DNA from: an uncultured Chlorobiaceae bacterium
Lineage (GTDB): Bacteria > Bacteroidota > Chlorobiia > Chlorobiales > Chlorobiaceae
Length of the DNA stretch: 64,000 bases
Direction of reading: 5' to 3'
NCBI GenBank assembly: GCA_903824295.1
Contig: CAIJWE010000030.1
Location: forward strand, 124,001-188,000
Shown: one piece after another, positions 16,172 through 21,113 of the stretch
How positions within the stretch are numbered: the first letter of the stretch is position 1
Layout: the number at the start of each line of letters is the position of its first letter
The notes under the pieces: model-generated
Told to the model about the DNA's origin: nothing
The model's input: only the letters and a program-made list of their open reading frames with translations
The model's database searches: none
Made by a program: the position numbers and the translations under genes

Positions 16172-16519
16172 ATGACACTTATCTTTGTTTACAACACCGA
16201 CAGCAACCCGATCAGCAGTCTCATCGACTTGGGACACAAAATCCTGAGCCCCGAAACCTACAGTTGCAGTCTCTGCAAACTGACCCATGGGCCATTCACG
16301 GAAATTGATGCATGGAAAGCGTTCCGTACCTCCATAGGCGTTCCCATGGAGTTTCTGCACCGCGACGAATTCGAAAAAAAATACGAGCAGCACTTCGAAT
16401 ACCCTGTTATCCTGAAAAAGGGCACAAGAATGGAGGTGCTTCTGCCTAAAAAGGATATCGATAATCTGGCCGACCTTGATGCACTCATCGCTGCTGTACA
16501 AAAACAGCTTCCAGCATAG
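16172..16519 (+). CDS. Conserved hypothetical protein with a CxxC motif
   Basis: A 115-residue soluble protein starting MTLIFVYNTDSNPIS. A short CSLC motif (about residues 33-36, in TYSCSLCKLTHG) might bind metal or act in redox chemistry. The C-terminal helix is Asp/Leu-rich. The same start and CxxC context recur in hypothetical proteins I have seen, but no function is known to me. It follows the small membrane gene closely and precedes the oxidoreductase-like gene by 249 bases. Confidence 0.65.
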   Translation: MTLIFVYNTDSNPISSLIDLGHKILSPETYSCSLCKLTHGPFTEIDAWKAFRTSIGVPMEFLHRDEFEKKYEQHFEYPVILKKGTRMEVLLPKKDIDNLADLDALIAAVQKQLPA

Positions 16520-16768
16520 CAAAACCCCGAACAGGTATCATTTTTGGCGAATCAAAATAAAATCGCTTAATTAAGGAAAATTGGTTGAGATCCTTAATAA
16601 ATTGCGAATCCCATCTTTTTTCATCAAAACTTTTCAGGGTGTTTGTTGGTTGTAACGAAAACTATAAACCAACATCATGTATCTCTCATAACGGGACAGG
16701 ATGTTTTACTCGTTCCCCCCTTGTAAGTCATTGAAAAAGCATCAACCATAGGTGAAAGGATTTCAATC

Positions 16769-17629
16769 ATGAATGATACACTCACAGAGTTCAATATGCC
16801 CCACATCACCGATGCCGCGTGGTGCCCTGCTTGCGGAAGCCACATGCTGCACAAGGCCGTAACGTTGACCATGCATGAACTCAATATTGAACCGGAAAAC
16901 CTTGTGATGCTCTCTGCAATAGATCAGGCAGACAAAACGCTGCACGATCTGAATGCCATGTTCAAAGAGCTGTACAGCCGTTTGCGTCCTGCCGATCCTG
17001 GCTTGAAGCTGCCGGAGAGGAAACTTGTTGTTATCGTTGAATCTGGTGACGGCAATACGCTGGACGAAGGAGAAAATCATTTTATCCATGCAATCCCGAA
17101 AGGCATTGATGTCACGGTGATTGTCCACAACAACATGGTCTACAACCCTGACAACGCTCAAGCCTCTCTGGCATCGCCGCGCGGCATGAAGAGTTCGACA
17201 AGGGTTAACGGAGTCAAACTCGAGCCTTTCAATCCGCTGGAAGTAGCACTGGCCATGAAAGCTCAGTTCATAGCAAGAGGCTTGGCCGGAGACGTAGAAC
17301 GGACAAAATTGATGATCATGGAGGCGATTGCGTTCAGAGGATTTTCGGTGGTCGAAGTATGCCAACCATGCGTCGTATTCAACAAACTGAATACCTGTCA
17401 GTGGTTCAAGAAAAACATGCACTACCTGCCCAAGAACCACGACACCAGTGACCGCAATGCGGCATTCCGTCTTGCTGCCGGATACGATAAACTGCCTCTG
17501 GGGGTTTTCTTTCGCCATGAAGAGACTGAACTATACGAAGACCAGATGGGTAGCAATACTGCCCAGCTCCATCAGCCGCAGCTACCTCGTAAAAAAAATT
17601 TGCAAATGAAGACTGAGGTTTACCGCTGA
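16769..17629 (+). CDS. Orphan 2-oxoacid:ferredoxin oxidoreductase beta-subunit homologue, divergent
   Basis: This 286-residue protein aligns to the thiamine-diphosphate-binding beta subunit of pyruvate/2-oxoglutarate:ferredoxin oxidoreductases. It retains WCPACGSHM (two cluster cysteines), a ThDP motif from GDGN to HNN with normal spacing, and a late cysteine (VCQPCVVFN). However, the third cluster cysteine, normally in a GIGCS context, is replaced by LSAIDQAD, and GDGD has become GDGN. The usual SPT-type loop is also changed (ASLASPRG). No alpha subunit lies nearby. It may bind ThDP without a normal 4Fe-4S cluster, or be repurposed. A GAAAGGA ribosome site supports the start. Confidence 0.8.
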   Translation: MNDTLTEFNMPHITDAAWCPACGSHMLHKAVTLTMHELNIEPENLVMLSAIDQADKTLHDLNAMFKELYSRLRPADPGLKLPERKLVVIVESGDGNTLDEGENHFIHAIPKGIDVTVIVHNNMVYNPDNAQASLASPRGMKSSTRVNGVKLEPFNPLEVALAMKAQFIARGLAGDVERTKLMIMEAIAFRGFSVVEVCQPCVVFNKLNTCQWFKKNMHYLPKNHDTSDRNAAFRLAAGYDKLPLGVFFRHEETELYEDQMGSNTAQLHQPQLPRKKNLQMKTEVYR

Positions 17630-17664: not shown

Positions 17665-17965
17665 AAGAACTGAACCTGCAAAACCAGCGCCTTTTGAGAG
17701 TCTCGAATCGGTGCTCAAAGGCGGAGAGCAATCCGGCGCATGGCTGGGCCGCAGCGACGCGCCGGAGCTGGAGCGCGGTGAAGCGATCCGGGCGCAAGGG
17801 GCGGTACTGCGGCAGTTGCACGCCTGGCTGAAGAAGAAGGATCCGAGCTTCGGCGGACTGATCCGGGTGCAGAACAAGCGGCAGGAGTTCCTGTGGGTAC
17901 ATCCGCAAGCAGGACTATCAGCAGGATTTGACAAGAATTATTGGATCGAAAAGCCGGACAAGTGA
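17665..17965 (+). pseudogene. GC-rich gene fragment of unknown origin
   Basis: An open frame of about 100 codons starts after a TGA near 17663 and contains LRQLHAWLKKKDPSFGG and RVQNKRQEFLWVHPQ. It is markedly more GC-rich than neighbouring genes, has no good start or ribosome site, and its last residues run into unrelated sequence. It reads like the C-terminal portion of a transferred gene. I do not recognise the family. Confidence 0.35.
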
Positions 17966-18172: not shown

Positions 18173-20044
18173 TCAGGCTTTATTATCGATATACGTCTCT
18201 TTGACCCAAGCCAGAATTTTCTGCTCCTCCGGAGAAATGCGTTCATCAGCACTTGCAGCCTTCTCCATCAGCTTGTAGATACTGTTTCGCATATCCTGAC
18301 CTTCCGGCATTCTGATCGAAAGCCTTCCGCTTGCGGCCATCTTGAAAAGAGGCTTAATATCGGCGCTCTTGAATCCCCATTTTTTTGCCGCTTCAGTCAG
18401 AAAAGTTCTCTCATCGCCATGAAATGCTCCATCAGCAGCAAAAACAATCATGATGTTATTGAGTGCATAATCTTTAACGCTATCAAGTTTATCCAACACA
18501 ACAGGATCGACTTTCGCGATGAAAGCGCCCTTATTCGCGCCATAATATTCGGCAAATTTTGAGCGACTCATCAGTGCACTGACAACCCAGTCGTTCGTTG
18601 TACTATTGAGCAGACTTCCGCAATATGAACACTTGATATCAAGCGTGTTCCTGACAGGGCCACCACAAGCAGGACAATTATGCTGATAGATTGAACCCTT
18701 TCCAGCCCCAGCCTGGTCATCACGGGTCAGAAAGATTACTTCTTCCGCTGTTCTGATTTCCTGATCGACCAGCTCCACCCTGTTGTTTGTAATCAACACT
18801 CTCTGCATCGAGCAGATAATCGCAAAGATGAGTATGTTTTTATTTCCCTTTTTCTGTGCACCAATGAGAGTGACCTTGTTCAGGAAAATACGATTGAAAA
18901 TTTCCTGATTCCTTTCGAACTTTGGTGCAAGCTGCTGGAATAATTCATCTGAAACAAACCTGCGCATTACGGAAGGATCATGCATGACTTGAGCGGTCAT
19001 GATCTGCATGTAGGCATTTGAAGCCTTGTCCTCAACCAGTTGAACGGAAAAATCTCCATAAACAGATACCATCTCATGTATCTTCGTTTCGAGATTACCA
19101 ATCTTGCTTGAAAAAACATCATTTCTGTGGTAATCATCGTTCTGGGTAATTTCAGAAAGTACCCAGTCAAATTCCCCGGAGTTGACCGTTGCGTTACAAT
19201 GGGTACATTTGCAAACCTCACCGATATTCTCCGGCAGAGGTGCGCCGCAATTCGGACAGTTGCTGGAATCATAGATATCTTTTTTGGGTACTCCTCGCTT
19301 ACGGATAAACGACCAGAACTCAATAAAATCATCGAAACCTTCCTCATCCAGCTCATGATTCAGGGCGCAGGCAAACTTATCGTCCATGCTCGCTTCAATT
19401 CCAACATGCATAATATCATACAGGCCGTCCTGTTCGATTTTCTCGACCCAGATATCGCCAATTTTGATATTGCTTACCGGGTTGGTCTGCTGTAAAAGCT
19501 GCATCATCTTGAACTGGGTGTTGAATCGCTGATAGACACCGTCCGTAATGAACCTTCTCATCCGACTGGTATTTTGTTCAGACCAGGACGATTGAACTTC
19601 GATGAAAGCTTTGCGAACTTTCAACAGGAATGCGGATACATCGAAGTCTGGATTCACAGCAAGAAATCCCTTACATCCATCGACTTTTTCAAAAGAGTTT
19701 TTTTTATGGCCGGCCATCGAGGAGAACGTTGTCAGCGCAGCGTTTTTGAAAAATAAAAGAAGCCGGAATCCCACGAAGAGAATCACAAGGAGAATAATGA
19801 CTGTAATAAATGTGGAAAAGCCAAAGGAACCGGATCCCCCGGAGTAGCTATTATGTCCAATGCCCCCACCACCATAGGAATGCCCCCCGCCATGAAATCC
19901 ACCTCCGCTATGCCCCCCGCCATGTCCGCCACCATGACCACCTCCGCCCCCCGCCCGTGCAATAAGCTCCTCACCAATGAAAGGGATACTGAGAACAGCA
20001 ATGTTGATCATGATAAGAAACGAAAAAAAGCGACTGGATCTCAT
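18173..20044 (-). CDS. Membrane protein with two Tim44-like domains, two zinc ribbons and a TerB-like C-terminus
   Basis: The protein is 623 residues. A signal-like N-terminus is followed by a Gly/His-rich low-complexity tract (about 31-80, repeated GGGH units), a transmembrane helix (about 85-107), then two copies of a Tim44-like domain. Each copy ends in a zinc ribbon (CPNCGAPLP...CKCTHC and CPACGGPV...CSYCG). The last 130 residues look TerB-like (DERISPEEQKILAWVK). I placed the start at 20044, where CAGGAGT precedes the ATG; a longer frame reaches 20167. It is downstream of an SPFH-SHOCT gene with a 55-base gap, a pairing that recalls Bacillus YdjG/YdjI membrane-stress proteins. Confidence 0.75.
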   Translation of the reverse strand: MRSSRFFSFLIMINIAVLSIPFIGEELIARAGGGGGHGGGHGGGHSGGGFHGGGHSYGGGGIGHNSYSGGSGSFGFSTFITVIILLVILFVGFRLLLFFKNAALTTFSSMAGHKKNSFEKVDGCKGFLAVNPDFDVSAFLLKVRKAFIEVQSSWSEQNTSRMRRFITDGVYQRFNTQFKMMQLLQQTNPVSNIKIGDIWVEKIEQDGLYDIMHVGIEASMDDKFACALNHELDEEGFDDFIEFWSFIRKRGVPKKDIYDSSNCPNCGAPLPENIGEVCKCTHCNATVNSGEFDWVLSEITQNDDYHRNDVFSSKIGNLETKIHEMVSVYGDFSVQLVEDKASNAYMQIMTAQVMHDPSVMRRFVSDELFQQLAPKFERNQEIFNRIFLNKVTLIGAQKKGNKNILIFAIICSMQRVLITNNRVELVDQEIRTAEEVIFLTRDDQAGAGKGSIYQHNCPACGGPVRNTLDIKCSYCGSLLNSTTNDWVVSALMSRSKFAEYYGANKGAFIAKVDPVVLDKLDSVKDYALNNIMIVFAADGAFHGDERTFLTEAAKKWGFKSADIKPLFKMAASGRLSIRMPEGQDMRNSIYKLMEKAASADERISPEEQKILAWVKETYIDNKA

Positions 20045-20099
20045 AAGTGTTGACTCCTGATAATTGCGTTCAGTCAAAAGTAAATCGCAAATGGTGTGA

Positions 20100-21113
20100 T
20101 TACAGTTGTGAAAGAATCTGCTGCTTTTTCGTGTCGTACTCCTGTTGGGTGATGAGATCGTTGTCAAGCATCTGTTTCAATTTTGAGAGCTTGGCTACAG
20201 GATCTTCGGTTACCGCTGCCGTTTGGGGTACATTCATATTGGTCATCATGCCAGCCATTGCCTGGCCCATTCCAACACCGGCACCAAGACCAACTCCCAT
20301 TCCGGCCACTCCTCCCTGATTCTGGGCCGCATCTCGAAGCGCTGCCAACTGTTGGACTTGAGTATAATTCAACCCGACGGCCTGGGCAGCATGCGCCTCA
20401 GCCTGCATATCGGCAATGCGTTGCACCCGGCGCCTGGTGTCATCATCAAAATCAGTATTTTCGACACGAAAATCCTTAAGCTCGAAACCAAGGGTGAGAA
20501 AGATCGGAGCTACCTTTTCACGCACCCCGTCAGCAATTTCATTTCTGTTGGCATCAATCTCATTATAACCGAACTTCGCTTCAGCAAGAAAATCAGTAAG
20601 TGGCTGGACAAGTCTTGCCACAATGACCAGACGAAGTTCATCAACTCTGAACTCATCTCTCTGACCCATAACATTAATGAAGAAACTTCCTGCATCTGAA
20701 ATACGGAAAGAGAAATTGCCAAAACCCTTCATCCCAACTGGAAACTTGTATTGCGGATCAATATATTTCACGGGACCAGGTGTACCCCAACCCTGGTTCA
20801 GCATCTCGGCAGTCCGAAAAAAATAGATCCCAACCTTGTGCTCACTCTTGAATGCCTGCATGAATTTTGTGATCGTCGTCCAGAACGGGATATTTTGTGT
20901 TTTCAAGTCTGTCATACCCGGTTCAGTAAGAACAGCTTGCGGCTTACCCTCATAAACAAAGATCACGCCTTGACCGGGACCCACAATAAGCTTCGAAGCG
21001 TTTTTGATCTCATCTCCATTATCTGTCCATCGTTGGAAAAGAACATCCGGTGCAGGATTTTTCCATTCAATGACTGATCGTAACTGACCTGTAATTGAAT
21101 TCCATAACGCCAT
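20100..21113 (-). CDS. SPFH-domain protein with C-terminal SHOCT (YdjI / COG4260-like)
   Basis: A 337-residue protein. The SPFH (band 7) domain spans roughly residues 30-240. It is followed by a Gly/Ala/Met-rich linker (about 265-295) and a SHOCT domain (LSKLKQMLDNDLITQQEYDT) at the end. Proteins of this type assemble on membranes; some are annotated virion core protein or membrane protease subunit, neither of which is implied here. There is no transmembrane helix, so membrane attachment would be peripheral. It is the first gene of a probable operon with the zinc-ribbon membrane protein. Confidence 0.8.
   Translation of the reverse strand: MALWNSITGQLRSVIEWKNPAPDVLFQRWTDNGDEIKNASKLIVGPGQGVIFVYEGKPQAVLTEPGMTDLKTQNIPFWTTITKFMQAFKSEHKVGIYFFRTAEMLNQGWGTPGPVKYIDPQYKFPVGMKGFGNFSFRISDAGSFFINVMGQRDEFRVDELRLVIVARLVQPLTDFLAEAKFGYNEIDANRNEIADGVREKVAPIFLTLGFELKDFRVENTDFDDDTRRRVQRIADMQAEAHAAQAVGLNYTQVQQLAALRDAAQNQGGVAGMGVGLGAGVGMGQAMAGMMTNMNVPQTAAVTEDPVAKLSKLKQMLDNDLITQQEYDTKKQQILSQL

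Follow-up and report, generated by a model that had tools for sequence, protein, structure and literature searches.

An orphan beta-subunit homologue of 2-oxoacid:ferredoxin oxidoreductases in Chlorobiaceae: decay of the ThDP core and a possible new role

The stretch of DNA analysed here (the window; 64,000 nucleotides from an uncultured Chlorobiaceae bacterium) encodes a homologue of the beta subunit of 2-oxoacid:ferredoxin oxidoreductases (OFORs) in which a cysteine of the cluster site is missing, and which is not accompanied by an alpha subunit. The question arises whether such a protein might still be an enzyme and, if not, what it may be retained for.

Affiliation of the protein and the replaced third cysteine

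The gene (Table 1) is a real open frame with an ATG start, and its product contains WCPAC (C19, C22), GDG at residues 93-95, the pair N121/N122 and a late cysteine, C201. These motifs had been named in a sequence-only reading of the locus, and they were borne out by translation of the frame and by its alignment with the beta subunit of Sulfolobus tokodaii OFOR (StOFOR; 5b46). In this alignment, C19, C22 and C201 correspond to Cys12, Cys15 and Cys197, and the third cluster cysteine, Cys46 of GIGC, is replaced by Gln53 within AIDQ; the substitution of the GDGD aspartate, the fourth residue of that motif, was correctly read as asparagine (Asn96). What had been overlooked was the presence of additional cysteines, C198 and C210, and the damage to the ThDP site, with YSR for HGR and NPDNAQASLA standing for GLTKGQASPT. 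The window protein thus deviates from the canonical OFOR cluster site of four cysteines (CPxC, GIGC and the late Cys) by Gln53 at the third of them, and none of the three ThDP motifs HGR, GDGD and GLTKGQ is intact, their places being taken by YSR, GDGN and NPDNAQ.

Table 1. Coordinates, in the window, of the orphan gene, its leader elements and the motifs of its product
Feature	Position	Strand	Basis
Conserved element TTTTTGGYGAATCAAAATAAAATCGCTTAATT of the leader, present once in the genome; may be a promoter or operator	16541..16572	+	leader alignment, genome search
AAAGGA, ribosome-binding-site-like; conserved in most orthologues	16755..16760	+	leader alignment
Orphan OFOR beta-subunit-like gene, 286 aa; probable ThDP-less pseudoenzyme	16769..17629	+	ORF, profile matches, tree, codon models
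CPAC motif (C19, C22), retained in 11/11 orphans	16823..16834	+	alignment
AIDQ (50-53) where GIGC is expected; third-Cys column occupied by Gln53 here and by Gln in every intact relative	16916..16927	+	alignment
YSR (69-71) for HGR of intact relatives; segment deleted in 4 orthologues	16973..16981	+	alignment
GDGN (93-96) for GDGD; degenerate in several orthologues	17045..17056	+	alignment
NNMVYNPDNAQ (121-131) for NNMVYGLTKGQ	17129..17161	+	alignment
CQPC (198-201): C201, ancestral late cluster cysteine; C198, new in 9/11 orphans, 0/95 intact relatives	17360..17371	+	alignment
Cys210, new in 9/11 orphans, 0/95 intact relatives	17396..17398	+	alignment

The protein scored above the cut-off for both PFO_beta_C and TPP_enzyme_C of Pfam. 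With TIGR02177 (PorB_KorB beta) it reached 218.4 bits (E=1.3e-64), which is below the cut-off of 261.9 though clearly indicative of homology, and intact relatives reached 336-371 bits. Its score with NF008821 (PRK11869-type), 257.7 bits, was also below the cut-off of 438; among intact beta subunits the scores were 408.7 (G015, itself below the cut-off), 438.8 (L143) and 488.8 (L100). By descent it belongs to the PRK11869 type, as it is nested in the Chlorobium branch (support of the orphan clade, 100), and it shows the cysteine pattern of this type, with C19, C22, C201 and Gln53. Judged from its sequence, then, it is a beta subunit of the KorB/PorB family, PRK11869-type by descent; since an alpha subunit and an intact ThDP site are missing and the family cut-offs are not reached, it is not filed here as a working OFOR.

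The replacement of the third cysteine, pointed out in the sequence-only reading, is not special to this gene but a hallmark of the already known PRK11869-type subfamily. Seven intact Chlorobium relatives were made into a profile, which detected 198 related loci among named genomes with search patterns that left out the third-Cys position; the best 80 of the 198 (L065-L144) were retained. Among these, the third-Cys column is occupied by Gln (GIGQ) in all 78 complete intact beta subunits, whose invariant cysteines are the same three as in the window protein and no others, so that the loss is indeed common to orthologues, a point that the earlier reading had itself raised. The possibility that the window protein is the sole case devoid of this cysteine was thereby ruled out. 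An alpha gene adjoins the beta gene at every intact locus (truncated by contig ends at a few), and in close relatives it lies directly upstream; in G015 it encodes a gamma-alpha fusion (587 bits to TIGR03710). The subfamily is found in Chlorobiota, Moraniibacteriota, Planctomycetota, Omnitrophota, Elusimicrobiota, Thermodesulfobacteriota, Spirochaetota, Thermotogota, Atribacterota, Lentisphaerota, Aminicenantes, methanogenic archaea and others. All solved relatives that were aligned contain GIGC, no solved structure of a GIGQ-type (PRK11869-type) beta subunit was present among the relatives found, and in the open-access literature no description of the GIGQ replacement was found. HpdF, a subunit of the active 4-hydroxyphenylpyruvate:ferredoxin oxidoreductase, was reported to have three conserved cysteines for the catalytic cluster (PMC13285125, 2026); a subunit with three cysteines can therefore be reconciled with catalysis. 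HpdF is likened to the window protein by this published description only, and it belongs to an active multi-subunit enzyme.

The direct ancestor lineage is represented by the intact PRK11869/NF008821 beta subunits (that of the Chlorobium operon in G015, and L066 of C. ferrooxidans), which are 46-59% identical to the window protein and resemble it in length, WCPxC, QPC and Gln at the third-Cys position, but differ from it by HGR, GDGD, GLTKGQ and the adjacent gamma-alpha fusion (TIGR03710). The beta subunits of StOFOR1 and StOFOR2 (5b48, 5b46), the best solved relatives by both sequence and fold, have the same fold and, unlike the window protein, GIGC (Cys46), four ligands, an intact ThDP site and an alpha partner. 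Canonical Chlorobium KorB, of the same superfamily and with WCPGC, is about 32% identical to the window protein, from which it differs by GIGC and by the presence of its partner KorA. AlphaFold2 models were of modest confidence (mean pLDDT 63 for the window protein and 69 for the intact G015 beta subunit), and the best fold matches of both were StOFOR and other OFOR beta subunits. In the model of the window protein the ThDP loops (68-78, 94-103, 126-152) fell below 50 and most of the C-terminal half was at 82-91; as the intact subunit, modelled without its partner, has low loops too, the contrast between the two models is weak.

Loss of the alpha gene and decay of the ThDP core

The gene is present in 28 of 65 genomes of the window's genus, 17 times as the intact type and 11 times, the window's own genome included, as the orphan type. 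The orphans constitute one branch (SH-aLRT 100) nested among the intact Chlorobium operon genes. All nine intact-beta genomes that were tested for the F3-type alpha contained it. It was absent from each of the eight orphan genomes tested, which comprised the window's own and every other one save G081, G085 and G087. The earlier remark that no alpha subunit is nearby holds more widely: none of the protein's own kind is encoded in the window or in the window's 99.98%-complete genome (G000), whose only alpha-like matches are canonical KorA, PFOR and an IorA-like protein, the best being canonical KorA (38%, on another contig) and the IorA region. Searches for an alpha gene elsewhere in the genome, or for its remnant upstream, found none, and no alpha remnant was seen in the orphan neighbourhoods.

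By proA identity, nine of the 11 nearest relatives of the window's genome carry the orphan gene, and these nine, the window's genome and G020 (partial proA, 93%) make up all 11 orphan genomes. In G077 and G009, two of the 13 closest genomes, the gene is absent without remnant, with the flanking genes in place in G077. Such a distribution, together with the clean absence in these two genomes, fits vertical descent with loss.

Sequence decay in the orphans is concentrated in one region. Among 21 positions that are near-invariant in 95 intact relatives yet lost in most orphans, 19 fall into residues 52-145, one is residue 158 and one is G21, beside the CPxC cysteines. HGR, GDGD and GLTKGQ are degenerate among the orphans, and in four of them (L041, L042, L043 and L048, of G010, G025, G033 and G012) an in-frame deletion of 25 residues has removed the HGR stretch. 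The protein tree does not group all four deletion genomes (G012 stands apart), so either the deletion occurred in parallel or the tree is in error. The C-terminal tails differ between orthologues as well.

Codon maximum likelihood (MG+F3X4, kappa fixed at 1) gave an overall omega of 0.33 for the orphans versus 0.105 for near intact genes, an increase of about threefold. Relaxation was about 8-fold in the ThDP core (residues 45-155; 0.46 versus 0.057) and about 1.6-fold in the C-terminal half (156-262; 0.24 versus 0.147), and the N-terminus gave 0.30 versus 0.119. An omega of 1 was rejected everywhere (2dlnL 194 overall, 39 for the core, 138 for the C-terminal and 31 for the N-terminal part), and pairwise NG86 ratios agreed with these estimates. 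The orphan tree contains about 3.5 substitutions per codon, and no stop is found in the 11 frames, all of which are open, versus tens of stops expected under free drift (a rough estimate from mutation opportunities); therefore, free drift is not credible. A frameshifted gene or pseudogene was likewise ruled out by the open frames, and the absence from G077 and G009 is clean. A separate observation is that an antisense open frame of 251 aa (16763-17518, minus strand) covers most of the orphan gene, and that long antisense frames also lie opposite several of its orthologues; this is probably an effect of codon composition.

In the leader, about 200-230 bases 5' of the start, a 32-bp element shows up to 93% mean pairwise identity, versus 60-70% for most of the leader. 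It occurs in 10 of the 11 orphans, being degraded in G012, and was not found in the intact operons examined. The genes upstream of the orphan vary between genomes, so the element goes with the orphan gene. A structured RNA leader was ruled out, as an Rfam search of the leader gave no family match, and a scan for sigma-70 promoters and terminators produced no more matches than chance.

Several neighbours deserve mention in their own right. A conserved 115-aa protein without Pfam or NCBIfam match is encoded at 16172-16519 (plus strand), and in several Chlorobium genomes its relatives lie close to beta loci, orphan as well as intact. A short open frame without Pfam match (17711-17965, plus strand), perhaps a gene fragment, follows closely on the orphan gene. 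The region 18173-21113 (minus strand) encodes two proteins side by side, one Tim44-like and weakly similar to zinc ribbons, the other an SPFH/Band 7 protein that ends in a SHOCT tail; this pair recurs in G021 and G012.

Cysteines at the old cluster site

The suggestion that the standard cluster was lost and ThDP perhaps retained has to be reversed for this clade: it is the ThDP core that has decayed, and C19, C22 and C201 are retained in all 11 orphans. The newly gained C198, found where intact relatives have Phe or Leu, completes a CPxC plus CQPC arrangement; the position of C210 is usually aromatic in intact relatives. Only G021 and G087 lack C198, and these two still carry GIGQAAK, so the gain of C198 goes with the later decay of that segment. 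C210 is missing from G012 and G021, and a site built from these residues is not universal among the orphans.

C198 and C210 align to residues 194 and 206 of the StOFOR beta subunit, both within loop 194-210; this loop and residues 2-17 are among the four loops surrounding the [4Fe-4S] cluster (PMC5020499). Because the new cysteines take cluster-loop positions, a Cys4 site composed of C19/C22 and C198/C201 is plausible. Motif spacing and loop position are what would point to metal binding by such a site.

Possible roles of the orphan protein

With no alpha partner, HGR or GLTKGQ, the protein should, to judge from sequence, be unable to act as an OFOR. A divergent active enzyme, still binding ThDP and pairing with canonical KorA or another alpha as a substrate variant, could be imagined from the GDG and NN pair retained in the window protein and from the canonical KorA encoded in the genome. 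It is nevertheless highly improbable, given that HGR and GLTKGQ are lost, that GDG too has disappeared in orthologues and the whole HGR segment in four of them, that KorA is already paired with its own KorB, and that the ThDP core is the region of most relaxed selection. Thus, when a distinct enzyme or partner was proposed for this gene, the enzyme was the unlikely part, and a distinct non-catalytic protein or partner is possible. One such partner would be a regulatory decoy, which would have no metal site of its own and would modulate KorAB, PFOR or IOR through a C-terminal half still able to bind an alpha subunit or ferredoxin. The constraint on that half and the other OFORs encoded in the genome speak for it, but the cognate F3-type alpha is gone and the gains of C198 and C210 would be left unexplained, which makes us consider it improbable.

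The main rival to a selected pseudoenzyme is a slowly decaying relic, that is, a beta subunit left jobless by the loss of alpha, under weak residual constraint (for instance against misfolding) and with neutral new cysteines. The lack of the gene, without remnant, in G077 and G009 and the threefold elevated omega indicate that it is dispensable and may be slowly decaying, and the lost ThDP motifs and variable C-terminal tails are also as expected of a relic. On the other hand, all 11 frames are open where free drift would have produced tens of stops by the rough estimate, neutrality is strongly rejected, most so in the C-terminal half, the deletion is in frame in four of four cases, the upstream element is 93% conserved and two cysteine gains are common to nine of the 11 orphans. 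We therefore regard the relic as unlikely, although less so than the other alternatives.

A catalytically dead protein under selection is, on these sequence comparisons, likely, and a non-catalytic pseudoenzyme maintained by selection for a different job is the probable explanation of the orphan. It descends from a PRK11869-type OFOR beta subunit, and sister Chlorobium species still possess the complete operon; the gamma-alpha gene was lost in the ancestor of the species group, after which the motifs of the ThDP core disappeared and, in four genomes, the core was also shortened. To judge from omega, the open frames and the upstream element, selection seems to continue, with the N-terminal CPxC and the C-terminal half as its main targets. 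The most likely candidate for a working part would be a metal or thiol site where the cluster formerly lay (C19/C22 and C198/C201, with C210 nearby), holding either an Fe-S cluster or Zn; that a Cys4 site does serve in this way is a tentative proposal, to which we give somewhat less than even credence. More speculative still is the full scenario, in which an OFOR beta subunit has given rise, within one genus, to a new metal or thiol protein free of ThDP, with the partner lost, the coenzyme domain being deleted and the old cluster site rebuilt as two CxxC pairs, for a redox-sensing, regulatory or electron-carrier role. As a guess, this redox or regulatory protein might be bound to another oxidoreductase or to ferredoxin.

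The orphans and their relatives display, within one genus, stages in the conversion of an enzyme subunit to something different: the complete operon, alpha-less intermediates with GIGQ (G021, G087), orphans with lost motifs and new cysteines, and orphans with the in-frame deletion. For the widespread OFOR subfamily with Gln at the third ligand, the holding of a cluster by three cysteines becomes a testable question. Finally, the annotation '2-oxoacid ferredoxin oxidoreductase subunit beta', when placed on the orphans, would mislead metabolic reconstructions.
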